From a virus: a stretch of 58,100 nucleotides of DNA. Location: the IMG/VR virus record IMGVR_UViG_3300043465_000956, positions 1 through 58,100 of that record, one strand, 5' to 3'. Shown piece after piece: positions 4,999 to 58,100 of the stretch. The first letter of the stretch is position 1, and every line of letters begins with the position of its first letter. Position numbers and translations under genes: made by a program. The notes below the pieces were generated by a model that was not told the DNA's origin, did not search any database, and was given only the letters and a program-made list of their open reading frames with translations.

Positions 4999-5707
4999 AC
5001 AAAGAGCAAAAACAGAGCGTACTCCACCAAGCGGAGGATACTCTCCTAGGTATAATCTTATCAAGCCTAAGACTATCAACCAAAGAGATTATGTATCTTC
5101 CATTAAGGAAAATGACGTAACTATTTGTTCAGGTCCGTCAGGCAGTGGAAAATCATTGGTGGCTCTTTCTACTGCTATCTCTAGCCTGATTGATCCTAAT
5201 AAATCCTTTAGTAGGGTTTATGTTACTAGGCCAATGATCTCTACCTCTACAAAGGACTTTCCATGGATCAAGGGAAGTTTGATTGATAAACTGAGACCTT
5301 GGTTTGCTCCTATCTTGGCCAATCTTGAAGAGCTTGTGGGATCGAAGACAGAGCTTGAAAAACTCATTGAGCAAGAGACTATCTGCTTACAAGCGATAGA
5401 ACTGATGAGAGGGTTCACCTACAAGAACTGCTACGTTCTGATCACCGAAGCTCAGAACATGACTGTTCCGCAGGCTGTTATGGCGATCACCAGAATCGGC
5501 GAAAACTGTAAGATGGTTTTTGAGGGTGACACAGATCAAAAAGACCTAAGAGGAGAAGAAGATGGACTGTCATACCTAAAGAGAAAGCTAATAAATAGGC
5601 CAGATCTGTGCGGTATGGTATCTCTAGATTCGTCTGATATCTTACGACATCCCCTAATCGGCCAGATTCTAGAGCAGCTAGATTATAGGGGTTTGGGCTC
5701 ATACTAG
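4991..5707 (+). CDS. phoH: PhoH-like P-loop ATPase
   Basis: Product of 238 residues, typical of phage PhoH-like proteins. Walker A is GPSGSGKS (residues 48-55). The Walker B region reads CYVLITEAQN (147-156), where most family members have D before EAQN; here T152 replaces it. The later EGDTDQKDL motif is also characteristic. The family is linked to phosphate starvation and RNA metabolism in bacteria, and its phage role is not settled. It overlaps the preceding gene by 8 bases. Confidence 0.88.
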   Translation: MTRQRAKTERTPPSGGYSPRYNLIKPKTINQRDYVSSIKENDVTICSGPSGSGKSLVALSTAISSLIDPNKSFSRVYVTRPMISTSTKDFPWIKGSLIDKLRPWFAPILANLEELVGSKTELEKLIEQETICLQAIELMRGFTYKNCYVLITEAQNMTVPQAVMAITRIGENCKMVFEGDTDQKDLRGEEDGLSYLKRKLINRPDLCGMVSLDSSDILRHPLIGQILEQLDYRGLGSY

Positions 5708-9526: not shown

Positions 9527-9998
9527 TCTAAAGACAGCTATAGATGAAAAGGACTGGTCGAAGGTGGTAGAATTCTACCGAATGTTGGCAGGGACTTTTG
9601 AGTCCCCAGTGGTTGAGGGGACTATGCCCGTCAAGGCCTCTGGGAGACTCGCTGAGTCAGACTTCTCTATGAGGCGGACTGTGGCATCGCAAACTCCGAC
9701 CAAGGCTCAGAAGGCTCCAGAGCCGCCAAAAACGAAGCGAGCCAGTAAAAAGAAAAAGGCGGCAAATACCAAGATCGAGTTTGTTGACACTGGGGAAAGA
9801 GTAGAGGAAGCTGGGGCCGATCTGATCAATGATAATGTGACCCCCTCGCCGAGAACGCGAAAGCCGTTCCAGACCGTCAGCATGGCCTGTATTGTCTGCA
9901 AAAAGACGGAAGATATGCATCCTCTCTTCAAAAGAGACGCAGAAGTTTACAAGTGTGACAGATGTTTGATTAAGGGCAAAAAAGATGGAGTTGAGTAA
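9516..9998 (+). CDS. Unknown protein with C-terminal zinc finger
   Basis: Product of 160 residues from ATG 9516, which has GGGAAAAAG about 8 bases upstream; an in-frame TTG at 9498 is less likely. Three parts are visible: a short helical N terminus, a long basic low-complexity linker (PKTKRASKKKKAAN), and a C-terminal four-cysteine finger, ACIVCKK with YKCDRCLIKG. The pattern suggests nucleic-acid or protein binding. It overlaps the helicase start by 14 bases. No family name is offered. Confidence 0.65.
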   Translation: MINNLKTAIDEKDWSKVVEFYRMLAGTFESPVVEGTMPVKASGRLAESDFSMRRTVASQTPTKAQKAPEPPKTKRASKKKKAANTKIEFVDTGERVEEAGADLINDNVTPSPRTRKPFQTVSMACIVCKKTEDMHPLFKRDAEVYKCDRCLIKGKKDGVE

Positions 9999-44766: not shown

Positions 44767-45597
44767 CTATTGATCAACGGCTACAGCAGCTACCTCAACT
44801 TCGGCCTGAGCCTCGGGCTGAGCCTCGGGCTGAGCCTCATCCTTGACGGTTGTAAAGTCGTCCTCAAATTCAGCCTCTTCGATATTTACCCCAAGAGGAT
44901 TGCCATTTAGGTCAACACGCTTCCCAGCAGAGTCTAGCCTGTATCCGTCTTCGTCGACTTTGTGACCCTCAATATCGACGAGGTTTCCAGCATTATCAAC
45001 GAAGTGCCCAAGGTCGTTTACAAGCTTAAATCTCTTCAAGAACTTGTTCTCGACTAGGGTACTCTCATAGTCTTCATTAACTCCGTAAAGAAAATTAGCA
45101 AACTTTTCAGCTAAAGCGATGCCCAGATCGTCAGACCCTTTTTCTAAGTAGTCTTCCGTAGAGGCATATACGTATTTCTGGGTGTCATAGTCAAAAACTG
45201 ACTTGGCCAAAAGAGCATTGAACCTAGCATTATCTGCTTGGGCCTCAGCGGAATTAGATTCCATCTGATTTCGCTCAGAAATAAGGGCTCTAAACTCTCC
45301 ACGCTTTTTGGCAAGCTGGATTGCAAGGGCCTTGCCCTCACTAACCTTCATCTTTCCAGAAGATAGCTTGTATTCCAGCTCCCCAATTTCTTTAACGAAT
45401 GACTTGTATAGCTCTTCCTTCTTGTCGTTCCACACGCCTTGCTCTATCATATAGTTCATAAGGCTCTTTTTTAGGAGAGCCCCATCATCGAGAGCCTGAC
45501 GAAAGGCCTTATTGTGGATCTTTTTACCTTCGGCGATAGCCTGTGGGGTAATCTTGATGAAATAATCTTTTTCCCCAACCGTGAATCTATTTTCCAT
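44767..45597 (-). CDS. Possible tail assembly chaperone (276 residues)
   Basis: ATG 45597 is chosen because AGGAGA lies 4-5 bases upstream; an earlier in-frame start would overlap the next gene further. The N-terminal half is helical (HNKAFRQALDDGALLKKSL; YMIEQGVWNDKKEELYKSF) and resembles the product at 45867. Between the tube and tape measure this is the normal place of tail assembly chaperones. A repeat of short D-x-x-G units (VDIEGHKVDEDGYRLDSAG) and an acidic tail with PEAQ repeats follow. Confidence 0.55.
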   Translation of the reverse strand: MENRFTVGEKDYFIKITPQAIAEGKKIHNKAFRQALDDGALLKKSLMNYMIEQGVWNDKKEELYKSFVKEIGELEYKLSSGKMKVSEGKALAIQLAKKRGEFRALISERNQMESNSAEAQADNARFNALLAKSVFDYDTQKYVYASTEDYLEKGSDDLGIALAEKFANFLYGVNEDYESTLVENKFLKRFKLVNDLGHFVDNAGNLVDIEGHKVDEDGYRLDSAGKRVDLNGNPLGVNIEEAEFEDDFTTVKDEAQPEAQPEAQAEVEVAAVAVDQ

Positions 45598-45835
45598 GAT
45601 CTCTCCTAAGTGGCATAAAGTAAATTGTCTTGTATTTGATGTCAAACCCGTCCAAATCCCGTTCCAGTTCCCTGATCTGAAAATGGCCCTTGTCCAAAAT
45701 GTCTTTTCTTAGCTCTTCATATTCGTCCCCTTCAAAGATATCCTTGTATTCCTCAAGGCTTGCGAGAGCCCCAATCATCGTGGTCATAATGCGTCTTCGC
45801 ACCGCCTGATAAAGTTGTACTGCACCATTTCCCAT
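45587..45835 (-). CDS. Unknown 82-residue protein
   Basis: Begins MGNGAVQLYQAVRRRIMT and contains acidic/aromatic ELRKDILDKGHFQIREL. It lies between the two chaperone-like genes and overlaps the 276-residue gene by 11 bases. No family recognised. Confidence 0.6.
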   Translation of the reverse strand: MGNGAVQLYQAVRRRIMTTMIGALASLEEYKDIFEGDEYEELRKDILDKGHFQIRELERDLDGFDIKYKTIYFMPLRRDHGK

Positions 45836-45866
45836 TTAATTACCCCTTATCCTATTTTGGTCAGAT

Positions 45867-46799
45867 TCATCTGGCCCTAAAACTTAATTCGTTCTTTTTC
45901 ATGCCAAGCTCCTGTTTTACGTGCGAGAACTGTCGCTCATCAAGGGTGCCCTTGTCGGCCAAATCCTTGGCTCTGGACTTCAGAATTTGCTTGCCCTCTG
46001 GGCTATTTAGATTATTAATCTCTCTGACCTCTTTCTGACTGGAGGCCATAACGAAGACCTCCCCAGAATTTTGGCTTGGAAGATCTTTCTTCTTCTCCTC
46101 AGCCTCTCTCTTCTTGGCCTGCTTGATGAACCAACCATCCACAGCCAAAGGGTCTCTCATGACTATATTGCTCGGCGAGTCCATAGATTCACCAATATTG
46201 TCATAGAGTTTACTCCAGTAAAGTAGGCTGAGCTGATTGTCATTTAACTGATTTGCACTAAGTCCAAAAACAGATTTTGGGTCTTTAGAGCCGCCCCATA
46301 TCATCCGCCAAGTACTGTCAAAATACAGGGCCCTTATGTCTTCCTCTGAGATTCTAGAATTCAAAAACTTTCTAGAAAACACGAATGGAGAATCTCTATC
46401 TTTAAATAGATAATACGCATAGGCTTCGTCCCTAGCGTATTCGCAGGTGTACTCATTCAGATAAATCTTCTTTTGAAATGCAGTGTTCAATTGATGGATC
46501 TTTGCGTCAATTGCTCGCTTGATCTTCATGCGACGGGTTTCAATAACGAATACCTCGAAATAGTCCACTTTCATCTGCTGCAAGTCTTCGAATCCCTGAA
46601 GATAGTCCTCCTCCTCATTCTGGGTCCACAGGCCAACCTCCATTAGATAATCGGCCAATTCCTGTTTACTAAAAGAGCCGAACTCAAAGCATTCTTCATA
46701 GACCGTCTCGGAATAGGCAGCAGCTTCGGCCTTTTCTATGGGAGAGAAATTGGCGATCCTGATCGGCTTTTTAAAAGCTAATAGTGTCGTATTAGACAA
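45867..46799 (-). CDS. Possible tail assembly chaperone (310 residues)
   Basis: Starts at TTG 46799 with AGGAA upstream. The helical N-terminal half (ECFEFGSFSKQELADYLME; VGLWTQNEEEDYLQGFEDL) shares the GLW/GVW-E-x-Y pattern with the product at 44767, suggesting paralogues. Both lie between tail tube and tape measure. In many phages two chaperone forms come from one gene by frameshifting; here they seem to be two separate genes. Confidence 0.55.
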   Translation of the reverse strand: MSNTTLLAFKKPIRIANFSPIEKAEAAAYSETVYEECFEFGSFSKQELADYLMEVGLWTQNEEEDYLQGFEDLQQMKVDYFEVFVIETRRMKIKRAIDAKIHQLNTAFQKKIYLNEYTCEYARDEAYAYYLFKDRDSPFVFSRKFLNSRISEEDIRALYFDSTWRMIWGGSKDPKSVFGLSANQLNDNQLSLLYWSKLYDNIGESMDSPSNIVMRDPLAVDGWFIKQAKKREAEEKKKDLPSQNSGEVFVMASSQKEVREINNLNSPEGKQILKSRAKDLADKGTLDERQFSHVKQELGMKKNELSFRAR

Positions 46800-46842
46800 C
46801 AGTTCCTGTATGATGGCTCTCGCCCCCTAAAGTCCTATACGA

Positions 46843-46866
46843 GAATGGGGGCTTTCGCCCCCATTC
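46843..46866 (-). terminator. Perfect hairpin with GAAA loop after the tail tube gene
   Basis: A 10-bp perfect stem (GAATGGGGGC with GCCCCCATTC); on the minus strand the loop is GAAA, a GNRA tetraloop. It lies 27 bases after the tail-tube stop. There is no T-run, so it may be a partial terminator or an mRNA end that raises tube expression over downstream genes. Confidence 0.75.
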
Positions 46867-46892
46867 AGTCCGAAAGTTTACATAGCTAAGGC

Positions 46893-48098
46893 CTACGTAA
46901 AATGGTACTTCCAATAGTCTGCACTAACGTAGGTCATAGGGTCTCCCGAATGAAGAACTACGAAGTCATTGTTGTTCTGCATTGAGTAGGTAATAGCGGC
47001 GTTGCCCCCACCAGCATCTCCACCACCATAGCTTACACTAGTAAGCTTGTTCTTGTTGCCAACCTGAATTACAGTAGAGTCATCAAGACACACCTGAATC
47101 GTATGGTTTGACAAGTTACCACCGCTAGGTACGTCTTCGACAGCGTTGATGTTGTCTCCACCAACTGCAATCACCTGAATCTCAGTTGATACGTTGACCG
47201 GAAAGTTCACGTATCTGTAGTATGGAGCATATGTACCAAGCTGGTTGATCGCTTCGCGACCGGCGTCGACCGAAAAGCTAATAGACTGAATGTGAACGTT
47301 AGCCAGATTGACACTTCCACATCTTCTGAATGAGCTTGCTCCAGTTGCTCCAGTGCCAGAGCCGTTATTGGTCATCCCTTGGATGAAGTCTGGTAGCACG
47401 GTGACAAAATTCCCACTACCACGAGCAACAGTCCCAGATCCGTGTAAGAAGTTATTTCTTCGGAGAACTCCACCGTCTGGAGATTGGGGTGAGTCATCCC
47501 CGAATGCAAATACTGAGTTGACAATTCCGCTAGCACCAAGAAGAATACCAGTATCACTAGTTGAAGTGATCCACTTCTTGTTGTTCCCAACAAGTGTCAG
47601 GCTCTCAGTGAAGTTTCCATCCGTAGGTAGATTGATACTAACTGAAGACCAATACATGCCTGAGCAATATAGCTCTGCGGCTAGGCTCTGCCCACTAGCT
47701 ACGGCTGCATTAGTTTCGAGACCAACCACCATTCTCAGATCGGCTCTCGCGTCAGCACGACCAGATAGGGTCGGGTTCGCAGCACGAATTGTGGCGGCAT
47801 GATAAGCCATTGTATAGCCGTCCAACAGACGTTCGAAGGTTGCTTCGATATCTGGAACTTCTTCCACGTTCTCATAGATCGAAAGCTGACCCAGCTCCTG
47901 CACAGCCTCAAGACTGAAGTTAGTATTAACTCCAATACTCTGAAGACCATGCATGATGATCATATTTCCAGAACCTATGAAGGTTGCTGGATCGCCATTA
48001 CCCCAAGAATCTTTCACGCCAGTTGCACCCATATCTCCAATAGCGACACCTTGGGTGGCGTAAAAAACACGCTTGTTTGTATTTGGATTAAACGTCAT
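46893..48098 (-). CDS. Major tail tube protein
   Basis: Product of 401 residues. Beta-rich, with the segment AVQELGQLSIYENVEEVPD, then IEATFERLLDGY, typical of tail-tube proteins. It is followed by chaperone-like genes and then the tape measure, the standard order. Flanking ribosome-binding site GGAGAAAAT and a strong hairpin after the stop fit high expression. A tube is normally 150-200 residues, so an extra domain may be present. Confidence 0.7.
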   Translation of the reverse strand: MTFNPNTNKRVFYATQGVAIGDMGATGVKDSWGNGDPATFIGSGNMIIMHGLQSIGVNTNFSLEAVQELGQLSIYENVEEVPDIEATFERLLDGYTMAYHAATIRAANPTLSGRADARADLRMVVGLETNAAVASGQSLAAELYCSGMYWSSVSINLPTDGNFTESLTLVGNNKKWITSTSDTGILLGASGIVNSVFAFGDDSPQSPDGGVLRRNNFLHGSGTVARGSGNFVTVLPDFIQGMTNNGSGTGATGASSFRRCGSVNLANVHIQSISFSVDAGREAINQLGTYAPYYRYVNFPVNVSTEIQVIAVGGDNINAVEDVPSGGNLSNHTIQVCLDDSTVIQVGNKNKLTSVSYGGGDAGGGNAAITYSMQNNNDFVVLHSGDPMTYVSADYWKYHFT

Positions 48099-48132
48099 TT
48101 ATTTTCTCCAGCAAAAAAGGAATTCCAATTAT

Positions 48133-49074
48133 TTATACGCCGTAATGAATTACTTCTGTAGTAATTTTCACAGTTCCAATTTTTACCCTGCCCAGACTAT
48201 AAACAGAGTCTAGCTTAGCATCAGAAATATAAACCGTTCTGCCGGGGTGGCTACTCACCAAAGTGGGGAAGGTTTTGGCCCCAGATTCAGGAACACCACG
48301 ATAATCCAGCGGAAAATCGCCAGAATCAGCTATCTTGTTGAGGTCATACATTTGGAAAGACCCCTTGGATTGATATGTGACTGCATCAACTAGGGAATCT
48401 CTGGTGTATGAGTCTTCTGCCACACAATGGCAATAGAAGTCGGTTATGACGGTTTGTCCACCCCCCAATTGGAATGGGATGAGTTTTCTGCCAGCTAGTT
48501 CAATCCCAACCAAGGGAAGAACCTGCCGATTTTCGGGCAAAAGCTCATATATGCCACTCTGATTGGCAAAATCCCCATCTGATCTCTCGGACCTCTCCTG
48601 AATTTGCTTGAACCACTCAATTCCTTCGGCGGCAGAGACTGAGATGTACTTGTAGGAATGGGGGCAATCTACTACAGAACTAGCCGCAATGGACGAGTTG
48701 AACCTTACAACACCATTGATGTGATCAATATGATAGGCATAAGTGCCAGTAGTGGCAGGTCCGTAAAAGGTATTGTTCACATAAACACCACTCACTCCGG
48801 GATAAGCTGGGTTGGTCGAGGTCAAAGCTCCAACTCCAGATTCCCAAACAAGATTCGGCCTGAATGTGGCCCACACCTGTCCATCTGTATACCTCGGGTC
48901 ATCCACCAGTCTGAGTCGACTGTCAATTCCCCCATAAAGTCCCGTACTAGGAACCGGCACATCAACAAAATTCCCCATAGTGAGGAAGTTATAGTCTAAA
49001 TACGATATTAGGTTTTCCCTTATGTCGTTGGTCAGGGTAGAATCGCCCAACCTCACAAAGCCTTTTAATGACAT
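48133..49074 (-). CDS. Structural protein near the head-tail junction, 313 residues
   Basis: Begins MSLKGFVRLGDSTLTNDIR. Beta-rich and Gly/Ser/Tyr-rich without enzyme motifs. It lies between the gp10-like connector gene and the tail tube. It could be a tail terminator-like or neck protein, but no family is recognised. AGGA precedes the ATG. Confidence 0.6.
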   Translation of the reverse strand: MSLKGFVRLGDSTLTNDIRENLISYLDYNFLTMGNFVDVPVPSTGLYGGIDSRLRLVDDPRYTDGQVWATFRPNLVWESGVGALTSTNPAYPGVSGVYVNNTFYGPATTGTYAYHIDHINGVVRFNSSIAASSVVDCPHSYKYISVSAAEGIEWFKQIQERSERSDGDFANQSGIYELLPENRQVLPLVGIELAGRKLIPFQLGGGQTVITDFYCHCVAEDSYTRDSLVDAVTYQSKGSFQMYDLNKIADSGDFPLDYRGVPESGAKTFPTLVSSHPGRTVYISDAKLDSVYSLGRVKIGTVKITTEVIHYGV

Positions 49075-49081
49075 AGGGTCC

Positions 49082-49735
49082 TCACTGTAGATAGCTAAAC
49101 ATTAATTTAGCGATTTCCGGTAAAAGAGAATTCACTGTATTTACTACAAAGTTATCATCTGTGGTTCCGGCAAAAACTGGGTCTACTCTAAATAATCGCC
49201 CAGATGAACCAGCAGGAAGCATAATTGCATTGCCCGACCGACTGCCGGGGAATTCCTTGCCGTAAGCCACGAAGTGGTCGTCATAGATGATTGTGACACC
49301 CTTGGTGAGCAACCAATCCATCCAGTCGATTTCGCCACCGCTGCTTTTGTATGCACCAATTTGCTTGATTGTGTCTGTGAATCCATCTGGGAGAATTGAC
49401 ACGGACATAGACCATGCCAAATTACCCAAACTACCACGCCCCCGAATGTCCAGATTCACTTTTACTGAGCGTTTAACGGCTTCTATAAGGTCTTGCACTG
49501 CGGTATTGGCGGCAGAATCTGTGAGGCCAAAATCGGCCCTTAGTTTGCCAGAGAGGATTTCTCTCGCGTGTGGCGTGGATCTGAGCTTGGTTTCAATCAA
49601 TTGGCCGACTCTGGCGTTGATCTGTGGAGCCGCTGATCGCATCTTTCTGTCGATTTGCTCAACCGCTTCTGCAATAATTTTGGCAGATACTGATTTGGTG
49701 GATTCTGTGATTTGTATTGAGGTTCTTTTGGCCAC
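49082..49735 (-). CDS. Possible minor tail / neck protein (HK97 gp10-like)
   Basis: Product of 217 residues. Helical N-terminal half (SAKIIAEAVEQIDRKMRSA) followed by a strand-rich end (GVTIIYDDHFVAYGKEFPG) resembles phage gp10-type neck proteins. It starts at GTG 49735, one base overlapping the upstream TAG (TAGTG), which supports coupling. Its place between connector genes and the tube supports the role. Confidence 0.5.
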   Translation of the reverse strand: MAKRTSIQITESTKSVSAKIIAEAVEQIDRKMRSAAPQINARVGQLIETKLRSTPHAREILSGKLRADFGLTDSAANTAVQDLIEAVKRSVKVNLDIRGRGSLGNLAWSMSVSILPDGFTDTIKQIGAYKSSGGEIDWMDWLLTKGVTIIYDDHFVAYGKEFPGSRSGNAIMLPAGSSGRLFRVDPVFAGTTDDNFVVNTVNSLLPEIAKLMFSYLQ

Positions 49736-50244
49736 TATTTCTTCCAGTGTGCTATGCAGTAATCAGTATTCAAACCCCACACAAGAACCTCGCCGCTTCT
49801 CTGAAGTCTAACCTTGTCTATGATTATATAGTCAGCCTTTCTTATGTCCTCAGTTTGGGCAGAAGTCCCAATCGTCATACATGATCCAGCGGCATAATCG
49901 AACCCTCCGACCTTCTCAAAGCTCTTTTTGTCGCTATAGACGCGAAGGGTTATGTCTTGAGTGGTTTCTACTATCTTGGTTGCCTCGCCGCCCCTAACCA
50001 TTCCCGCTTGACCCGCCTGAGGGTTCATTGTGAGCCGTTGTCTGATGTCCGCTGGAGTTGAAGAAATTGGCGAGATCTTTTGGTATACCAACTGGCAGGC
50101 TACACCAAAGTTATCCAAAGAGGAAAACAATGACATAGCTTCAGCATACTTTGTATATACGTTAGATGGTATTTGCATGGCTTCGCCCAATCTAAGCACA
50201 CGAGCATTATGCGAAGTAGTAGCTACCGCTAGGCCCACAATCAT
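49735..50244 (-). CDS. Unknown structural protein, 169 residues
   Basis: Begins MIVGLAVATTSHNARVLRL at ATG 50244. Mixed strand-helix protein ending DYCIAHWKK. No family recognised. It lies in the connector block and overlaps the upstream gene by 38 bases. Confidence 0.55.
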   Translation of the reverse strand: MIVGLAVATTSHNARVLRLGEAMQIPSNVYTKYAEAMSLFSSLDNFGVACQLVYQKISPISSTPADIRQRLTMNPQAGQAGMVRGGEATKIVETTQDITLRVYSDKKSFEKVGGFDYAAGSCMTIGTSAQTEDIRKADYIIIDKVRLQRSGEVLVWGLNTDYCIAHWKK

Positions 50245-50401
50245 CAAATCTAGTGTTTAGAATTCCAGATTGTGAAACAATCACATTGTGTTCAACTCTC
50301 GCATTGACCTTCTGGGTATTGCCCAATTTATCTGCATAAACAGTAGCCGTCCCATTCTTGTACGTTACGCCAGTACCTGCAAATGAAATTACGTCTGCCA
50401 T
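50207..50401 (-). CDS. Small unknown protein, 64 residues
   Basis: MADVISFAGTGVTYKNGTAT start at ATG 50401, overlapping the upstream stop as TAATG; GGAG lies about 10 bases upstream. Compact beta-like protein with CGPSGSYYFA at the end. No family recognised. Confidence 0.6.
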   Translation of the reverse strand: MADVISFAGTGVTYKNGTATVYADKLGNTQKVNARVEHNVIVSQSGILNTRFDDCGPSGSYYFA

Positions 50402-50871
50402 TATCGTCTGCTCCAATAAGACCCATAAGGGGATAGGATAGCCTCACCAACATTGTTATTGGTCGTGGCGAAATTTAACTTGGTTCGTTCGTATCTCTCG
50501 CACATATCGGCATAGAGACTCTTAAAGTTGGTGGCCACACCGCCCATGTCCACACTAGAAGGGCCATCACTAACCCTAATAGCCGATAGGCTATGGGTTT
50601 TATACTCGGCCCCAATAATGATGCAGGCTGCTTTTAAAGAGACCAGATTTATGAACCCGTCATCTTTACTGGAAGAGTCTGTTGGGTCTGGCGATAGGGA
50701 GCATGTCTCCACATTGATCGTGTAAACCTGCTCAAAATCGATCTCTGTAGAAACAAGTTGTGCAGCGACCAAGATAGTCTGTTCAATTCTCTCATCAGGG
50801 TATGAAGGATTAGAGATATCGGTATCGTTGACAAGATACCTAACTATCGTAGAGATTTCAGTATTCCACAT
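50401..50871 (-). CDS. Possible head-tail connector (gp6-like)
   Basis: Product of 156 residues. Begins MWNTEISTIVRYLVNDTDI and has the strand-helix pattern of gp6-type connector proteins: a short N-terminal helix, YTINVETCSLSP, then ASLKAACIIIGAEY-like helix. The place before neck genes supports it. The assignment is by pattern and order only. Confidence 0.5.
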   Translation of the reverse strand: MWNTEISTIVRYLVNDTDISNPSYPDERIEQTILVAAQLVSTEIDFEQVYTINVETCSLSPDPTDSSSKDDGFINLVSLKAACIIIGAEYKTHSLSAIRVSDGPSSVDMGGVATNFKSLYADMCERYERTKLNFATTNNNVGEAILSPYGSYWSRR

Positions 50872-50879
50872 GGTGCCCC

Positions 50880-51209
50880 CTAGTCAGATATGTTGTGCAT
50901 TACTTTGAATGATTTAATTGGGCTATGGTATAAACTACCAATTCCTAATTCAACCCTAGCTTGTATCTTCCAGACGCCAACTTCATCAATATCTCCGACA
51001 AGTGTACTATAGTAAATACGCCCATTGGTCCCATCCGTTGTGAATGTAGCGGTCTTTGTGAGAATCGCCCCACTGGGTTTTTGTAGTAGAATTTGTTTTA
51101 CGGTCGCTGCCGATATGTCTAGGGCGATACAATCTTCAGTGATGATAACATCGAATGTGAAGTTTTTGTCGCCTACATGTAGATAAGATTCGCAAGACAT
51201 GTTACTCAC
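50880..51209 (-). CDS. Unknown beta-rich protein, 109 residues
   Basis: Begins MSNMSCESYLHVGDKNFTF. Alternating hydrophobic residues and a compact size suggest a small immunoglobulin- or jelly-roll-like structural domain (IRRYY-type strand TNGRIYYSTLVGDIDEVGVW). It overlaps the repeat-protein gene by 8 bases. Function unknown; likely virion-associated by position. Confidence 0.55.
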   Translation of the reverse strand: MSNMSCESYLHVGDKNFTFDVIITEDCIALDISAATVKQILLQKPSGAILTKTATFTTDGTNGRIYYSTLVGDIDEVGVWKIQARVELGIGSLYHSPIKSFKVMHNISD

Positions 51210-52314
51210 CTATTATAAGATTTCTGTTTATATTCAAATCGAACGTTTCGTGTTTTGATATGTCCATATTGAAAGTTTCGTGTTTTGATATATTTAGGTC
51301 GAATGCCTCGTGCCTTGATATGTTCAGGTCGAAACCGTATTGTCTGGCGATATTGAGAAGGAACTCTAGATTCTTTTTACCTTCCCCAAAAACGACAACA
51401 AATTCTGCTCCATTTGACGTTAAAAGGAATGATCCACGGTCGCTAGACAATAACCTGTTGTACAGAAGTCCAGCATCTTTCCCAGAAACAATAAACGACT
51501 CAGTATCTCCAGTTAATACTCTATTTGCCAATAGGTCGGCAGATTGCCCAGTTAATACTATAGAGCCACTATCCAGATTAAGTATTCTATCGTATTTAAA
51601 AGACAACGATTGTCCGGATGAAACAAAGATCCCATAATCAGAATTCAGAACTAAAGACTTGAGCAGACTAGCGTTACTACCGTTTAAACTTAGACTTGCA
51701 GAATTAACAACGAGAATATTTGTCTTAAGTAACGATGCATCAAATCCAAGTAGTGAATATGATGATGATCCAGCCTGTATTGAAGATCCTTTGTACAAGC
51801 CGCCATCTTGACCAGACAAAAGAAAACTAGAGAAGTCACCAGTCATTTTTCTAGCAGATAGAAGACCAGCATCACTACCTGATAAAATGAACTGGGAATA
51901 GTCAGACGTTAGATACTTATTATGATATGGATTGGCACCCTGTCCAGTCAGGTTAAAAGCTGCAAAATCACCAGTAACTTTTCTTGCAGCAGCAACTCCA
52001 GCATCGCTACCTGATAAAATGAACTGAGAATAATCAGATGTTAGATACTTATTGTGATAAAGATTGGCACTCTGTGCAGTCAGGTCAAAAGCTGCAAAAT
52101 CACTAGTAATCAACTTCTTATATAGAAGTGCGGCATCTTGACCAGCAACAAGATATGTGGCTCCGTCAGCAACGAAAACAAATCCCACAGCTTCAAAGCC
52201 CGGATAGCCTACGTGCCTAGCAAAGGGTGTTCGCCAGCCCAATACAACTGACGACTTATTTAAGTTGCCAGATCTGCGACCGAAGCTACCCAATGAATGT
52301 CTTGTTATTGCCAT
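51202..52314 (-). CDS. Repeat-rich structural protein, 370 residues
   Basis: After a 60-residue N-terminal part, the protein is built of about a dozen 21-22-residue repeats of the type SDxxxFxLSGxDAxLL, likely forming a beta-solenoid. Two pairs of units (44 residues, 132 bases) are near-identical (YHNKYLTSDYSQFILSGSD). The C terminus has four decapeptide repeats (FDLNISKHET type). Repeats of this kind occur in phage decoration or fibre proteins. The neighbours are connector-like genes, so a neck-fibre or whisker role is possible. Confidence 0.7.
   Translation of the reverse strand: MAITRHSLGSFGRRSGNLNKSSVVLGWRTPFARHVGYPGFEAVGFVFVADGATYLVAGQDAALLYKKLITSDFAAFDLTAQSANLYHNKYLTSDYSQFILSGSDAGVAAARKVTGDFAAFNLTGQGANPYHNKYLTSDYSQFILSGSDAGLLSARKMTGDFSSFLLSGQDGGLYKGSSIQAGSSSYSLLGFDASLLKTNILVVNSASLSLNGSNASLLKSLVLNSDYGIFVSSGQSLSFKYDRILNLDSGSIVLTGQSADLLANRVLTGDTESFIVSGKDAGLLYNRLLSSDRGSFLLTSNGAEFVVVFGEGKKNLEFLLNIARQYGFDLNISRHEAFDLNISKHETFNMDISKHETFDLNINRNLIIGE
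51214..51333 (-). repeat. Four tandem 30-base repeats (decapeptides)
   Basis: Four units coding FDLNISRHEA, FDLNISKHET, FNMDISKHET and FDLNINRNLI, with phenylalanine codons at 51331, 51301, 51271 and 51241. Copy number may vary between related phages. Confidence 0.85.
51869..52109 (-). repeat. Near-identical 132-base tandem duplication
   Basis: Two copies offset by 132 bases (44 codons), each containing the segment coding NKYLTSDYSQFILSGSD. Very high DNA identity in the shared part points to a recent duplication. Confidence 0.75.
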
Positions 52315-52315
52315 A

Positions 52316-52849
52316 TTATTGAATCACAAATATATCGCCAGATGCTGGTGCAGTCGTTAATGAAGACGCTGTCAAAACTCCGCCAGATGTTGATGCGGTT
52401 ATTTCACAGCCCTGTCCTCTTAAATTCGCCGTAGCTGTATCATCTGTAAACTTAAGTATTAATCCTTTAAACTGATCTGCCACAGAAGCCGCTGGCAGTA
52501 GACTACTAGTAACTACAGATGTCGTTGTAGATCCAACGCCAACTACGCCAAGTACAGCAGTCTTTAAAGCTTGTAACAACTTATAGTTGGGGTTGTCATA
52601 GACTTGAAAGGTCATAGTACTCAGGATGAGATTGACCCACCAAGAACATACTGGAGAACCACCAGAAAGACCTATCAACATATATTCCCCGACAGGGATG
52701 TCGGTATAGGCTGCGAGATAAGTTCCCTTTCTGTTTGTCGCTTCAGTCGCGGAGACACTGGCTACCTCAGTGTCAGATCCCGCAGCAAACAATTTGGCAG
52801 TGAGTGTTAGCCCGGTAGCAGCCCTAAATTCAATTGTTTGTGTTGCCAT
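52316..52849 (-). CDS. Unknown structural protein, 177 residues
   Basis: Begins MATQTIEFRAATGLTLTAK, with an immunoglobulin-like beta pattern (TYLAAYTDIPVGEYMLIGL) in the first half. The shared base with the 50-residue gene (TAATG) indicates coupling. A similar start is seen in small phage structural proteins that are paired with repeat proteins. No exact family recognised. Confidence 0.55.
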   Translation of the reverse strand: MATQTIEFRAATGLTLTAKLFAAGSDTEVASVSATEATNRKGTYLAAYTDIPVGEYMLIGLSGGSPVCSWWVNLILSTMTFQVYDNPNYKLLQALKTAVLGVVGVGSTTTSVVTSSLLPAASVADQFKGLILKFTDDTATANLRGQGCEITASTSGGVLTASSLTTAPASGDIFVIQ

Positions 52850-53001
52850 TAGTTACCTTCTACTTCCTTCATCAATGCCTGCACTTTGACAGCTACAGGA
52901 ACAATGGTTCCGCTTGCCTCTAGGGCATTTTGCTGATTTTTCAGCAGAAAGTTTAAAGCTTCAAGTACTAGAGTAAGTTCTTGTTTTGTAAATTCGTCCA
53001 T
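52849..53001 (-). CDS. Small protein of 50 residues
   Basis: ATG 53001 follows AGGAGAATATT, a good ribosome-binding site. The product (begins MDEFTKQELTLVLEALNF, ends MKEVEGN) is an acidic helix. The stop at 52849-52851 overlaps the ATG of the next gene (TAATG). Too short for common ORF cut-offs, but context and ribosome-binding site support a real gene. Confidence 0.75.
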   Translation of the reverse strand: MDEFTKQELTLVLEALNFLLKNQQNALEASGTIVPVAVKVQALMKEVEGN

Positions 53002-53021
53002 AATATTCTCCTAGATAAAAA

Positions 53022-53405
53022 TTATTCTGGGACAGGCTCGACAGAAGCCTGCCACTCTTGTTTTAGGTCTAAAATGACTAGACCATTCTCTCCAATATTA
53101 TACTCAAAAGCAGCAGTAGAATACTTAGATTCTATAGAATCTGGGTATGTCCCAGCAATATAACTGCAGAACTGAGCCGCGTCAGTAAGGATATCAACAA
53201 CAGTAGTTGGCATAACGTCAATTATAGCCTGCATTTCTGATACTGTGTATCGACTCCCTGTGGGAGGGCTAGAAACCCCCCAAAAGTCATGAAATGATTC
53301 CTTGAACTGTGTCAGGATCATTTCTTGCAACTGATTGGCCCGAAGGGCCTTGTTCTTGGCGTGCTCTATTGCGTCGAATGTTTTTAATGGAATTTCATAT
53401 GCCAT
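53022..53405 (-). CDS. Unknown 127-residue protein near the fibre genes
   Basis: Begins MAYEIPLKTFDAIEHAKNK, then a helical segment RANQLQEMILTQFKESFHD. No motif recognised. The place after the fibre genes suits a fibre assembly helper, but nothing in the sequence proves it. Confidence 0.55.
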   Translation of the reverse strand: MAYEIPLKTFDAIEHAKNKALRANQLQEMILTQFKESFHDFWGVSSPPTGSRYTVSEMQAIIDVMPTTVVDILTDAAQFCSYIAGTYPDSIESKYSTAAFEYNIGENGLVILDLKQEWQASVEPVPE

Positions 53406-53414
53406 TTATAACTC

Positions 53415-53612
53415 CTAATACCAAAAATGTGATGGAACGACTGGTGCCCTATTATATACTGGACCACGATATCTTTTAATAGTTTCAAGAGATACTCTCT
53501 CATGAACAGCATTTTCTACTTGAATTTTATTCATCCAATAATCATGAGATGAAAATAAAGCTATGTACCTAGCAAGGAATATAACTCCTATTAAGTATAG
53601 GGTTGACTTCAT
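53415..53612 (-). CDS. Small membrane protein, 65 residues
   Basis: ATG 53612: MKSTLYLIGVIFLARYIAL gives one N-terminal hydrophobic helix, followed by a basic tail with RYRGPVYNRAPVVP. An upstream extension to 53675 overlaps the Gly-rich gene and looks artificial. No clear ribosome-binding site. Could be a small holin-like or fibre-locus membrane protein; no function assigned. Confidence 0.5.
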   Translation of the reverse strand: MKSTLYLIGVIFLARYIALFSSHDYWMNKIQVENAVHERVSLETIKRYRGPVYNRAPVVPSHFWY

Positions 53613-53616
53613 ACGC

Positions 53617-54237
53617 TTAAAATGCGTTGAAAAAGAATTTTGCCCCGGTCGATCCCGCAGGCGAAGTATATGCAAAATCGACTAGACCCGCCGCACCATC
53701 ACCCCCATTGAATGTTTTTGAACCGCCACCGCCGCCGCCACCTGCAAAAGTCCCATTAGTGTTAGCGGCACCGCCAGCACCGGCAAAAGGAGCCGACCCA
53801 CCGGCACCACCAGTATTACCGATTCTCCCGGCACCGGTCCCACCAGTCGTATTGGTAGTCCCACCAGATGCCGTCCCGCCCGCAGTTGTCGCAGCGCTTA
53901 GATGTATTCCCCTGGCACCACCATTCGCAGTATATGTGCCCCCTGCAACAGTACTCGCACCCCCAGCAGTGCCATCCGTTCCGTCATCGCCCCCAACTGC
54001 CACGCCTTTTGCACCACCGGCACCAACAACATACGCAATCGTATTTCCCGGCGTAACAGTCAGTGCCAACTTCTGGCAAAATCCACCACCTCCACCACCG
54101 CTCGCACCCTGACCGCCTCCCGCATCACCACCACCGCCGCCACCGCCGCCACCGCCCCACAAACTGATATTAACAGACGTAACACCAGCCGGGACCGTCC
54201 AGTTTCCTGACCCTGAACTATAGCTATCGGTCGGCAT
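53617..54237 (-). CDS. Glycine-rich fibre-tip adhesin-like protein
   Basis: Product of 206 residues. The N terminus (SSGSGNWTVPAGVTSVNISLWG) followed by long Gly runs (WGGGGGGGGGGDAGGGQG) and further GGxGGx blocks is typical of glycine-rich phage fibre-tip proteins, which form polyglycine-II sandwiches and bind receptors. It lies directly after the 1062-residue fibre gene, the usual place for a tip or adhesin. The plus-strand frame over it is a proline-rich shadow. Confidence 0.7.
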   Translation of the reverse strand: MPTDSYSSGSGNWTVPAGVTSVNISLWGGGGGGGGGGDAGGGQGASGGGGGGFCQKLALTVTPGNTIAYVVGAGGAKGVAVGGDDGTDGTAGGASTVAGGTYTANGGARGIHLSAATTAGGTASGGTTNTTGGTGAGRIGNTGGAGGSAPFAGAGGAANTNGTFAGGGGGGGSKTFNGGDGAAGLVDFAYTSPAGSTGAKFFFNAF

Positions 54238-54238
54238 A

Positions 54239-57200
54239 TCAAGTCCCTACATCTGTTGCTGCGAGATACATGATTGAACCATCCCAACGCCACGACACAA
54301 CCCTGAGATTAGTAGCGGCATCACCAACCCAGTTGGGTTCAGTGCCCATCCACTTTATCGTTCCGCCCGTGACTGCCCAAGTCGTAATGTCCTTGGACGC
54401 GCTGGCGTGTTGTTTAACGATCAAGGTGCCCGCAGAAGATCCCGTTGGCGGAGTGAACGTCACTTGTGAAGTGCCCAACGAAGCCAGTGAAGTTAGGGAC
54501 AGCGTCTGATGGTTGTTTAAGGTTAAGTCAATTGTCACCGCACCAGCAGCCGGTGTGCTCGTAGTCTCCGTGGTCTGATAAATCGTTTTAGTTGTTTTAA
54601 CCCCCGCCGTCGCTGTAAGCAATCCGGTGGCGGTAGAAGTACTCGACAGAGTCACCGCATCCGAGAACGTGAAGCCAGCAGAAGCACCGACTGCATCGAA
54701 GGTAATAGCCCCAGCAGAAGACACGGTGGTCGTATAGTAGTTACTCACATCGTAGCCCACTCGCAACTGTTCCGTCGTGCCGATGACGTGAGCAAATGCT
54801 GATATCGTTGTCCCCGTTCCGATGCCCAGCTTTCCGGCAGAGGTTAGCCGCATCTTTTCTGATGGAGATCCCGTCGATACATCCAGCCCCCAGACAAATG
54901 CAGTAGCGGCGGTCGTTGATTCTGCGTAAGCCCCAAACACACCCCTGACACCAACCGCTGTAGGAGAAGCGTCAGAAGAGTAGAACTCAATTTCTCCAAG
55001 AGGCTGATTTGCTAACACTGAATTATCTGTGTCGGTGAACCGCAATCTGTTTGTTGCTGTGCCAAGTCCAGTCGCCGCAGTATTTGTCCCCACCAACTGA
55101 AGGAGTCCATCTGTTGATACGACACTCCCGAGTGTAAGGGAGCCGTCAGATTGTAGCCTCATTCTGTTTGCGACGGTTTTTGTCAGGTCTGTGGCATCTG
55201 TAGTTGCCCACGTCCATTGAGTACCGTTCGACGTAGCTGTCCATGCGGCTGGGACTGTGCAAGTATAGTTCGCTTTGACGCCAGTGAACGCGGTCGCATT
55301 TTCATCATAACCGTATCCGTACATCCCAAGAAGCACGTCGCCTGATGCCGGGTAGAAAGGAGCCGCCGCTGTCCCTCTTGCACGTTGGCAAAGAAACTGA
55401 ACTCCATTTCCGGTAGTGTCATTGTAACACTTATACGTTTGGGAGAGTGCTGCCTCTACCTGATAGACAAGTGTAGAAGTAAATGTTTTAGTCCCAGCAA
55501 TCGTCTGCGTGCCTGTGCTTAGCAACCCCCTCGCCGTAGCTGACGCAGTGGGAATACTAAACGTGTGAGTTGTGCCGGTGCTCGTAATATCAAAGTCAGT
55601 ACCAGTTGATGCAACTGCAAATGTTTGGTTGCTGGATAAGGCGAGTGCGTTCAGAGTTCTTGTGAGAGGGACATAGGTTGAAGTTGCCGTTGCTGAAGTC
55701 AGATACGAGGAAAGGTCTTGATCCCCGGTGTTCGTTCCTGAGAGATTAGACCCAGCGATTGCTCCAACGACAGTCAGATTTCCATTACTCTGTAATGTCA
55801 TCCGATCAACCCATGTACCAGCAGAGTTCCAGTGACCAGTAAGATATGATCTAGTTGCTGTGCCTCCGGCTGAGCCGACCTCCAGCCCCATCTTAACGTC
55901 AGTGGTCGTAGGCTTGATTGAGTACCGTTCGAAATTAGTAGAAGATACCTCATTGGTATAGACATTAAGAACTATAGCACCTGCACTATTCTGACAATTG
56001 ATTGAGGTTCCGTAAAGATACGCCTGATTACCGACGTGAGACAAAACGCCGCCCGAAGCATTTGTCAGATAGAAGGTGTTGTTCACCGTCATATCAGACT
56101 GGCCAAGCTGGGTTGTCAGCGACATTCCTACTGTCGCACCCTCATACAGTCTTAGTAAAGAGCCAGCAGCCGAGGTGCCATGAATAAATACTTCACCACC
56201 ACCAGAAGAAGAACTACCTACTTCAAGGTCTCCCCCGTTATTTGCCGCCCCGGCAATCCTCATCGCAGAATTGGAAGTGACTACTCCTGTGAAAGCCCCA
56301 CCCGCAAGAGGCATATAAGTAGATGTGGCCGTTGCTGGAGTAAGGTAAGTAGAGGCGGCTGTAGCCGAGGTCAAGTACGAGGAAAGGTCTTGATCCCCGC
56401 TATTAGTCCCAGTGAGACCCAAATCAGTTTTGAGGGTCGCAAGTGTCTGAACTTCTGGGGCACCACTCAGAGCCGTCTTTCTATAGATGAGAGAACCCGT
56501 AGCCATATTCGCCATATCAGCAAGAGCGACTGCACCGGCTGCTATCGTTACCGCGAATGAACCTGTACCGGACCCGGTAACGTCCCCGGTGAGTGTAATT
56601 GTCTGATCACCGGAGTTCGTGCCCGTCAGTCCGAGATCAGTCTTCAACGTGGCAAGAGTCTGAACTTCTGGAACACCTGTCGCAGCGGTTTTGCGATAAA
56701 ATACTGTTCCAGTTGCCACATTCGCCATCTTGGCTAGAGTGACAGCCGCCGTCGTAATTGTCGCAGCATTCCCAACCGAAGTTACTTCTCCGGTCAAATT
56801 AGCATTCGTTGTCACATTACCAGCGGTTAGCCCTGAAGCAGTCCCAGTAAGGTTTGTAGCTACTCCACTCGATGGAGTTCCCAAGGCTCCACCATTTACA
56901 ATGATCGCCCCTGCTGAGCCTACAGCAATAGGAAGAGCAGCATAGACTCCAGAACCCATTCCGGTAATAGAGCCAACTGCGGGTGTGATCGTTATTGCGG
57001 AAGCGGCTGTAATCAGACCTTTCGCGTTGACCGTGACCTGTGATGCCTGAGTAGCTGAGCCGTATGTTCCGACATTGGAATTCACTGTTGCAAGCGTTAG
57101 TGCTGTAGCTCCAGTTGCATCACCGGTGTGCGTAGCATTCGTTACAAGGCCCGAATAAAGAGAGTTAACTGCATTATCGCCAGTATTGGTATTAGACAAA

Positions 57201-57427
57201 TTACTAGCTGAGATAGCCCCTGAAAAAGTCTTCGCCCCAGCGATAGTTTGAGTTCCAGTAGTAATCAGACCGCGAGCGGTCGCAGAGGCATCTGGAATAC
57301 TAAGTGTATGTACGCTACCAGAACTAGCAACTGAAAAGTCCGTACCGCTACTCGCAACCGCAAAAGTTTGGGCTTCACCAGTTAATCCATTTAGGGTCCT
57401 AGGACCACCATAATATTCAATACCCAT
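54239..57427 (-). CDS. Long tail fibre protein
   Basis: Product of 1062 residues, Thr/Ser/Ala/Gly-rich. Repeated segments are visible, for example LATLKTDLGLTGTNSGDQ (two copies) and SATARGLxxTGTQTIAGxKTF (two copies), plus SSYLTSATAxSTY repeats. This is the usual composition of trimeric fibres. The C terminus lacks a recognised endosialidase-type chaperone domain. Fibre genes lie upstream of the connector genes here, which is unusual order. Confidence 0.8.
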   Translation of the reverse strand: MGIEYYGGPRTLNGLTGEAQTFAVASSGTDFSVASSGSVHTLSIPDASATARGLITTGTQTIAGAKTFSGAISASNLSNTNTGDNAVNSLYSGLVTNATHTGDATGATALTLATVNSNVGTYGSATQASQVTVNAKGLITAASAITITPAVGSITGMGSGVYAALPIAVGSAGAIIVNGGALGTPSSGVATNLTGTASGLTAGNVTTNANLTGEVTSVGNAATITTAAVTLAKMANVATGTVFYRKTAATGVPEVQTLATLKTDLGLTGTNSGDQTITLTGDVTGSGTGSFAVTIAAGAVALADMANMATGSLIYRKTALSGAPEVQTLATLKTDLGLTGTNSGDQDLSSYLTSATAASTYLTPATATSTYMPLAGGAFTGVVTSNSAMRIAGAANNGGDLEVGSSSSGGGEVFIHGTSAAGSLLRLYEGATVGMSLTTQLGQSDMTVNNTFYLTNASGGVLSHVGNQAYLYGTSINCQNSAGAIVLNVYTNEVSSTNFERYSIKPTTTDVKMGLEVGSAGGTATRSYLTGHWNSAGTWVDRMTLQSNGNLTVVGAIAGSNLSGTNTGDQDLSSYLTSATATSTYVPLTRTLNALALSSNQTFAVASTGTDFDITSTGTTHTFSIPTASATARGLLSTGTQTIAGTKTFTSTLVYQVEAALSQTYKCYNDTTGNGVQFLCQRARGTAAAPFYPASGDVLLGMYGYGYDENATAFTGVKANYTCTVPAAWTATSNGTQWTWATTDATDLTKTVANRMRLQSDGSLTLGSVVSTDGLLQLVGTNTAATGLGTATNRLRFTDTDNSVLANQPLGEIEFYSSDASPTAVGVRGVFGAYAESTTAATAFVWGLDVSTGSPSEKMRLTSAGKLGIGTGTTISAFAHVIGTTEQLRVGYDVSNYYTTTVSSAGAITFDAVGASAGFTFSDAVTLSSTSTATGLLTATAGVKTTKTIYQTTETTSTPAAGAVTIDLTLNNHQTLSLTSLASLGTSQVTFTPPTGSSAGTLIVKQHASASKDITTWAVTGGTIKWMGTEPNWVGDAATNLRVVSWRWDGSIMYLAATDVGT

Positions 57428-57464
57428 TTATGCCTCCCACGAGCCGGATGCGAGTGTGCGATTA

Positions 57465-57481
57465 AAGGTCAGGATGACCTT
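57465..57481 (-). terminator. Hairpin at the stop of the 139-residue gene
   Basis: AAGGTCA and TGACCTT (7 bp) with a three-base loop, overlapping the stop codon at 57480-57482 and lying ahead of the fibre gene. No T-run follows; it may slightly separate expression of the two genes. Confidence 0.45.
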
Positions 57482-57899
57482 ATTGAACGGTCAGGATGCC
57501 GTTAGTAGGATCTAAGTCAACAGTCAGGGTTTCACCCGTTAATAGCGTAATCGAAGATCCATAATCCCACCATCCGATCAACTCATCATTTGTGGCAGTG
57601 TCATTATAAAGAGCGGCATATCTGAATGGTCCGATAGAACCACCAGCAGCAGTGAACACTACATCATCACCAATCAGCTTATACAGACCTGCGGTCTGAG
57701 CAGAAGTAGTGATAGTCACAGCCGTACCACCAGCAGTATAGCCATTGCCCGCTGAAATATCTGTAAGGTTAGCCTTAACTGTATTAGATGCTATTGGAGC
57801 AGAGTTAGTGAGCATGATCTTGAGAACATCTGCCCCGAGGTCGTGCTTTTTTTCGCTTAATGCTTCTACAAATGCAGAAATTTTGTTAAAAGTGGCCAT
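57480..57899 (-). CDS. Fibre-associated structural protein, 139 residues
   Basis: Begins MATFNKISAFVEALSEKKH, then IMLTNSAPIASNTVKANLTD and GNGYTAGG, a recurrent small phage protein found near fibre or structural genes. Beta-rich, Thr/Asn/Gly-rich. Ribosome-binding site GGAGAAATAATT precedes the ATG. Its exact virion location is unknown. Confidence 0.65.
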   Translation of the reverse strand: MATFNKISAFVEALSEKKHDLGADVLKIMLTNSAPIASNTVKANLTDISAGNGYTAGGTAVTITTSAQTAGLYKLIGDDVVFTAAGGSIGPFRYAALYNDTATNDELIGWWDYGSSITLLTGETLTVDLDPTNGILTVQ

Positions 57900-57938
57900 A
57901 ATTATTTCTCCTAATTGAATTTGTTTTAATTGACTTAC

Positions 57939-57956
57939 GGCTCAACTAGTTGAGCC
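57939..57956. other. 18-bp perfect palindrome
   Basis: GGCTCAACTAGTTGAGCC reads the same on both strands. It overlaps the stop of the partial gene at 57946. It might be a terminator-like hairpin or a protein-binding site; no function is shown. Confidence 0.4.
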
Positions 57957-58100
57957 CCGTAATTACATCGCCCGTACCAGTTGCAGACGACAATACTTTT
58001 GTATAGTGGACGGTGGTTCCATCGGTTCTTTTAATGATCAAATTACTTCCAGAAATTTCCCACTCCAGCATACTCAAAACTGCTGTCGCCAAGGTATGCT
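57946..58100 (-). CDS. C-terminal end of a small structural protein (partial)
   Basis: An open frame enters from the right edge and stops at TAG 57946-57948. The visible part includes VLSMLEWEISGSNLIIKR and VLSSATGTGDVITGLN, with the Ser/Thr/Gly composition of small virion proteins. The rest lies outside the window. Confidence 0.55.
   Translation of the reverse strand, partial: HTLATAVLSMLEWEISGSNLIIKRTDGTTVHYTKVLSSATGTGDVITGLN

Follow-up and report, generated by a model that had tools for sequence, protein, structure and literature searches.

In phage T5, the protein p132 has a BppU_N fold and forms the collar to which the side fibres are attached. The p132 collar is a dodecamer that carries three fibres, which corresponds to four subunits per fibre, and around 50 N-terminal residues of the fibre protein LTF pb1 probably thread the collar (PMC10038345, PMC7291167). 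A comparable arrangement may be encoded in the IMG/VR record IMGVR_UViG_3300043465_000956, a single virus record of 58,100 bases that was analysed as a whole and is called the window in the following. Like the T5 pair of LTF pb1 and p132, compared here by its published description, the window combines a fibre, here a candidate, with a stand-alone BppU_N-type protein. While the T5 fibre probably meets its collar with the N-terminus, the candidate docking tail of the window protein is C-terminal and built of decapeptides; that there are four of them, as there are four p132 subunits per T5 fibre, may be a coincidence. The N-terminal domain of BppU of phage TP901-1 (PF10651) is matched above the curated cut-off by the protein encoded downstream of the candidate fibre, but proteins of the window type are stand-alone domains of 106-109 amino acids without the rest of BppU. 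In L031, the L053 group and L101, the gene that directly follows a related 22-aa repeat gene encodes a relative of a third protein, the fibre-tail adaptor gp77 of podophage GP4 (PF23148), whereas the window has a BppU_N-like gene at this place. The features of the locus are as follows:

50880-51200, minus strand: stand-alone BppU_N-like protein, proposed collar or adaptor partner (Pfam PF10651; alignment)
51202-52314, minus strand: 370-aa repeat protein, proposed fibre; a single ORF with an ortholog at L005:217-999
52183-52314, minus strand: N-terminal head of 44 aa, conserved in L005 (alignment)
51391-52182 (aa 45-308), minus strand: twelve 22-aa units, proposed beta-helix shaft (period, models, fold comparison)
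51985-52116, minus strand: first copy of a 132-nt (two-unit) duplication, units 2-3
51853-51984, minus strand: second copy of the 132-nt duplication, units 4-5
51334-51390, minus strand: linker with a low-confidence predicted helix (aa 313-326)
51334-51363, minus strand: possible degenerate fifth decamer inside the linker
51214-51333, minus strand: four C-terminal 10-aa (30-nt) units, proposed docking tail
52316-52849, minus strand: upstream gene for a 177-aa protein, whose L005 homologue also precedes the repeat gene

The original prediction, made from the letters of the sequence, assigned two nested repeat systems to the 370-aa protein. The repeats are real, while several of their descriptors had to be corrected: the 22-aa and 10-aa arrays run consecutively, and the period of the long units, given as 21-22 residues, is exactly 22 over twelve units. 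With the units in register, 77 of 242 positions are identical at offset 22 (shuffle mean 21) and 86 of 220 at offset 44 (shuffle mean 19), and none of 10,000 shuffles reached these values. The four 30-base repeats at the C-terminus were found as predicted at 51214-51333; they encode the decapeptides FDLNISRHEA, FDLNISKHET, FNMDISKHET and FDLNINRNLI, with 22/52 identities at offset 10 (0/10,000 shuffles as high). The 132-nt pair at 51985-52116 and 51853-51984, which was also called by Tandem Repeats Finder, had been described as near-identical; its copies share 108 of 132 nucleotides (82%) and 33 of 44 amino acids. Outside the duplicated pairs, the pairwise DNA identity of the 22-aa units is only 27-59%, so that the array is old and the duplication younger. 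The claimed similarity of the copies at the DNA level thus applies to the duplication and to three of the decamers (21-23 of 30 nucleotides common to each other; 15-16 for the fourth), and not to the remaining 22-aa units. The DNA flanking the repeats is 69-77% identical between the window and L005, and units 10-12 are 55-58% identical to the positionally matching L005 units; by these values, the duplication probably arose after the split from L005. On/off phase variation was set aside, because the units of 66 and 30 nt are both multiples of three.

The neighbouring gene at 46893-48098, used as query, led to seven loci, of which only L005 contains the repeat gene. The L005 protein has 260 amino acids with 8 units and two clear decapeptides; as a query it matched only itself, and the window protein used directly against IMG/VR found no relative. 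The repeat protein was also not found in the full records behind L003, L006 and L007 (74-140 kb; linear and possibly incomplete). The product of the upstream gene 52316-52849 is 83.6% identical over 61 aa to its L005 homologue, which is interrupted by the contig end. Using this gene as query, 21 loci were obtained, none with an ORF of at least three 22-aa units in the DNA examined, and five of these loci end within 750 bases of the match. The repeat gene looks like an optional cassette. The N-terminal sequence of the 52316-52849 protein (MATQTIEF...) is also seen at the beginning of other phage proteins (L111, L117, L123, L127), which suggests a shared N-terminal module. In GenBank phages, no match was obtained by megablast of window positions 45000-58100 or by tblastn of two neighbour proteins.

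One scan of IMG/VR with repeat patterns from the metagenomic relative L016 gave 396 confirmed stretches, and 79 loci were taken from the best 80 of these. The same query gave 4 matches among 84,980 bacterial and archaeal species (one genome each), and a profile search of 385 genomes from the class of one matched species found a single one, that same genome. In GenBank, tblastn with three 22-aa repeat proteins matched 5 of 50,697 phage records (E ≤ 0.01 or 0.001), four from Manatee Spring and EBPR siphovirus 2; none of these scans of IMG/VR, genomes and GenBank is a census. Another of the repeat loci, L099, belongs to Mesorhizobium sp. WSM3626 and might be an inducible prophage. For the Manatee Spring repeat protein in MW202742 (L002:5003-5737), the annotated start at 5147 probably omits in-frame upstream repeat sequence. 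No model describing the 22-aa repeat was found by Pfam and PHROG in the proteins scanned or by NCBIfam in two proteins, and the match of NosD (PF05048) to the window protein (18.2 bits) lies below the curated cut-off of 23.6. Scattered domain models were obtained for the canonical repeat proteins, and three exceeded their cut-offs, namely Toast_rack_N (L026), Lipocalin_4 (L033) and Yop-YscD_ppl_3rd (L048). As none of the models has a single significant stretch, they were taken as chance sums over repeats. The match of phrog_8917 in L102 covers residues 410-919, outside the repeat match. Six motif strings of the repeat were absent from papers by text search, and the system was not recognised in the titles and abstract openings of the phage papers listed on repeats, beta-solenoids, head fibres, BppU and decapeptides.

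The unit number varies widely. In 101 loci, 94 ORFs with at least three units were found (same-contig loci included), ranging from 3 to 46 units; the sample leans towards regular units, because the best-scoring loci were retained. The longest array seen (L023:3936-7892) has 46 units in 1318 amino acids, L043 is an example of a regular repeat protein with 11 units, and within the twelve commonest classes 933 of 1069 spacings are exactly 22 aa. Length variation by whole units, as originally predicted, could be observed between the window and the sole ortholog found (12 versus 8) and in families whose members keep both flanks: one has 22, 24, 17, 29 and 29 units, a second 20, 5, 6, 4 and 20, a third 19, 19 and 9, and a fourth 15, 15 and 10, i.e., ranges such as 17-29, 4-20 and 10-15. 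The listed length differences between family members are near-whole multiples of 66 nt. One family is constant, with 11 units in 9/9 complete members. A constant number combined with strong divergence between copies had been named as the pattern that speaks against length variation; the number varies, and most copies are indeed strongly diverged. The largest difference within a strain is that between L053 and L073 (15 versus 10 units; flanks 99.5-100% identical), which could be due to assembly collapse, because L053 units 1-3 and 6-8 show 98-100% identity. This explanation is less easy for L066 and L067 (5 versus 6 units), because the identity of adjacent L066 units does not exceed 53%. Compared with L067, the first L066 unit shows 77% identity to unit 1 and 76% to unit 2, and from the residue strings it reads as a fusion of these two, as would be expected from unequal recombination.

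The residue pattern of the units suggests a fold. Among 856 distinct units of related proteins, which were chosen by a profile that favours the motif, positions 2, 4, 9, 11, 16 and 18 (counted from 0) are hydrophobic in 4919 of 5136 cells (96%) and charged in 23 (0.4%), compared to 2329 charged cells of 13,696 (17%) at the other positions; position 9 is Tyr or Phe in 850/856 units. In the twelve units of the window, which were first cut by period alone and later chosen identically by the profile, the six positions are hydrophobic in 61/72 cells and charged in 0/72. Three inward-facing pairs with a spacing of 7-7-8 suggest a three-sided beta-helix. The proposed check by structure prediction for a solenoid gave beta-helices in both AlphaFold2 models, one of the full protein (model 1) and one of the repeat region (model 2), although at low confidence: the mean pLDDT is 56.5 and 66.4, respectively, and residues 329-370 are below 50. 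The best match of both is the adhesin EtpA (model 1: Z 20.7, 252 residues aligned, rmsd 2.5; model 2: Z 22.3, 260 residues, rmsd 2.4), and model 2 further matches HMW1 and pertactin. While the models thus resemble secreted adhesins of the EtpA/HMW1/FHA type, no such match was found when the window protein was searched against the sequences of solved structures (no convincing match, best E 0.13), and unlike these bacterial adhesins, the 22-aa repeat is rare in the bacterial genomes scanned. Foldseek alone gave no match of model 2 to the PDB at E ≤ 0.001, and the best matches in a viral structure library are proteins of uncultured Caudovirales.

AlphaFold2 is described to over-predict beta-solenoids for perfect repeats (PMC11795689), and the residue pattern was for this reason weighted above the models. 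Together with the low pLDDT, this bias would fit a largely unstructured spacer, in which the beta-helix is an artefact and the repeat variation neutral. The hydrophobic pattern is, however, strict even in diverged units, including the aromatic residue at position 9, and the described bias concerns perfect repeats whereas the window units are strongly diverged, so that we regard a spacer as highly improbable. Alternatively, the beta-helix could be an enzyme of the tailspike type, a depolymerase with a sugar-degrading groove on the repeats and not a passive rod, since model 1 also aligns with tailspikes including that of HK620 (Z 18.9) and with polysaccharide lyases (Z 19-20). Depolymerases carry long irregular loops; the units here are regular, with 933 of 1069 spacings at exactly 22 aa, their number varies among relatives, and EtpA is the top match of both models. 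An enzyme of this kind is improbable, and a beta-helical rod of a virion fibre is the reading that we prefer.

The gene downstream of the repeat gene bears on where such a fibre would be attached. Its listed ORF starts from GTG 51209 (50880-51209), and the ATG at 51200 matches the L005 start. The product of 50880-51209 matches PF10651 with 25.5 bits (curated cut-off 23.1), and PF23148 was not found in it, BppU_N being the only family at E ≤ 1. A profile built from the window protein and its relatives and then iterated gave no match to solved structures (best E 0.24), and by this profile the ORF directly downstream is BppU_N-like in 17 of 91 repeat loci, or in 15 of 88 after removal of L010, L011 and L019, whose contigs were already counted. 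With Pfam alone, which is stricter, BppU_N was detected in 5 of 64 downstream neighbour proteins scanned; L023 and L035 are BppU_N-like by the iterated profile and not by Pfam. In 8 other loci (L031, L053, L056, L057, L059, L073, L079, L101), a gp77 relative is located immediately downstream, and the protein of L031 matches PF23148 with 97 bits as well as the solved chain 8jou_D, a 'virion-associated phage protein'. In the remaining 65 of the 88 distinct loci, neither type of ORF was seen right downstream, for several of them because the contig ends within the repeat ORF.

Other downstream neighbours belong to head-tail adaptor (5/64), portal, major head and tail families, and the upstream neighbours include tail-fibre families. 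In a relative without the repeat gene, a terminase, weakly matched head proteins and long unannotated ORFs precede the BppU_N-like gene, which is followed by homologues of the window genes leading to the tape measure protein; a terminase was detected by PHROG in one record and by PF03237 in 0/5. Since repeat genes often adjoin head genes, and since in one relative the module comes after the terminase and head-type genes, the protein could also be a head or capsid fibre with a functionally unrelated BppU_N-like neighbour. We consider this unlikely, because the adjacency to BppU_N-like or gp77-like genes recurs and because, as described below, ORFs just upstream of BppU_N-like genes end in decapeptide tails more often than controls. 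The beta-helix pattern, the BppU_N-like gene downstream and the adaptor genes that recur next to related repeat proteins make a fibre role the best-supported reading. Of the roles originally proposed, the neck fibre thus agrees with the data as to the fibre, and the term 'neck' would fit the position of the gene between head and tail genes; nothing was found in favour of a surface antigen, so that the earlier interpretation is partly supported overall.

Several further ORFs were observed in the window and its relatives. In a relative, the head-type genes are separated from the fibre module by a homing/HNH endonuclease ORF (L105:10766-12361; phrog_3339, E 2e-68). The window encodes a 1062-aa fibre-like ORF (54239-57427, minus strand) of which two stretches match BppL_N (35 bits against a cut-off of 25.8), and at 57480-57899 (minus strand) a phrog_644 protein; phrog_644 was also found in 5/45 upstream and 2/64 downstream neighbour proteins scanned. 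An 828-aa DnaB-like helicase ORF (9985-12471, plus strand) has an apparent intein at the Walker A region, as judged by eye from the translation.

The C-terminal decapeptides do not seem to be restricted to proteins with a shaft. Among the 22-aa repeat proteins, 14 of 49 C-terminal flanks have a period of 9-11 aa (p ≤ 0.01); these 49 are distinct, complete and at least 20 aa long and include the window and L005, and six shorter ones were excluded. In L003 and L006, which have no shaft, the start codon of the BppU_N-like gene coincides with the end of a mini-ORF of around 40-50 aa; L008 and L009 have no such mini-ORF before this gene. The tail of the L006 mini-ORF has a period of 10 (p 0.003 at lag 10; 0.027 at any lag), and its local similarity to the window tail was reached by 1 of 2000 shuffles, which supports a likeness of the two. 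For L003, the likeness is weak: the tail alone is not significant in period (p 0.08) or against the window tail (156/2000 shuffles), and it can be aligned to the L006 tail (0/2000 shuffles).

This association was examined on a larger scale with the BppU_N-like protein as query. The best 80 of 86 relatives yielded 60 upstream ORFs, as two loci had no upstream room and two no upstream ORF of at least 40 aa, and near-duplicate tails were removed; the longest candidate was taken as the upstream ORF. Just upstream of BppU_N-like genes, 21 of 60 tails are periodic at 8-12 aa (p ≤ 0.01), 19 of these 21 with a period of exactly 10, and 39 are not periodic at this threshold. The controls were tails of other ORFs of at least 150 aa from the same loci; these ORFs have a greater mean length, and 300 shuffles were used for them versus 1000 for the upstream tails. 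Of the 284 control tails, 6 are periodic (Fisher p 6e-13). The query-source contigs L003, L005, L006 and L008 were among the loci, and only L005 of these is periodic. Within the decapeptide, residues 1, 3 and 5 are large and hydrophobic (74, 64 and 79%), followed by five mostly polar residues. The phase score of this pattern, calculated for 18 of the 21 tails plus the window, was reached by 0/500 shuffles and bears on the pattern and not on the enrichment, because the tails were chosen for periodicity. As 22-aa units occur in only 3 of the 60 upstream ORFs, one of them without a periodic tail, the tail seems to be more constant than the shaft, which would be one fusion among several. The enrichment further suggests that the decapeptide tail may be a docking module of wide occurrence, the 22-aa rod being one of several partners fused to it. 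It is conceivable, though rather doubtful, that decapeptide tails are a general modular strip by which unrelated phage fibres are strung along the subunits of an Ig-type collar, with one subunit contacted by each decapeptide, the number of decapeptides giving the subunits occupied and the number of 22-aa units the reach.

Taken together, we consider it fairly probable that the 370-aa protein is a phage virion fibre, in which a beta-helical rod of 22-aa units is followed by a decapeptide tail that docks onto a BppU_N-like collar or adaptor. The twelve units would fold as a three-sided rod with one coil per unit, and recombination would add or remove whole 66-nt units, thereby changing the rod length stepwise and with it the reach of the fibre, which may in turn affect host attachment. 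In the virion, the fibre would be oriented with its C-terminus towards the collar, and the decapeptides would form short beta-strands that dock it onto the BppU_N-like protein encoded downstream. The latter would form a collar or adaptor on the tail or neck, comparable to p132 for the T5 side fibres. The model has to accommodate that periodic tails are found in only 21/60 ORFs, that one family is constant at 11 units, that the pLDDT values are low, and that 65/88 loci have no adaptor-type neighbour.

The window gene looks as if it encoded an adjustable virus fibre, which would be of a so far undescribed type. Among uncultivated phages the 22-aa repeat is common, with 396 IMG/VR stretches, yet it appears in only 5 of 50,697 GenBank phage records. 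If the proposed model is true, a class of phage fibres becomes visible for which both length and docking can be read from the sequence. The larger result lies just outside the focus of the original prediction, namely in the link between decapeptide tails and BppU_N-like genes, which, if true, would help to recognise the parts by which unannotated fibres are anchored.
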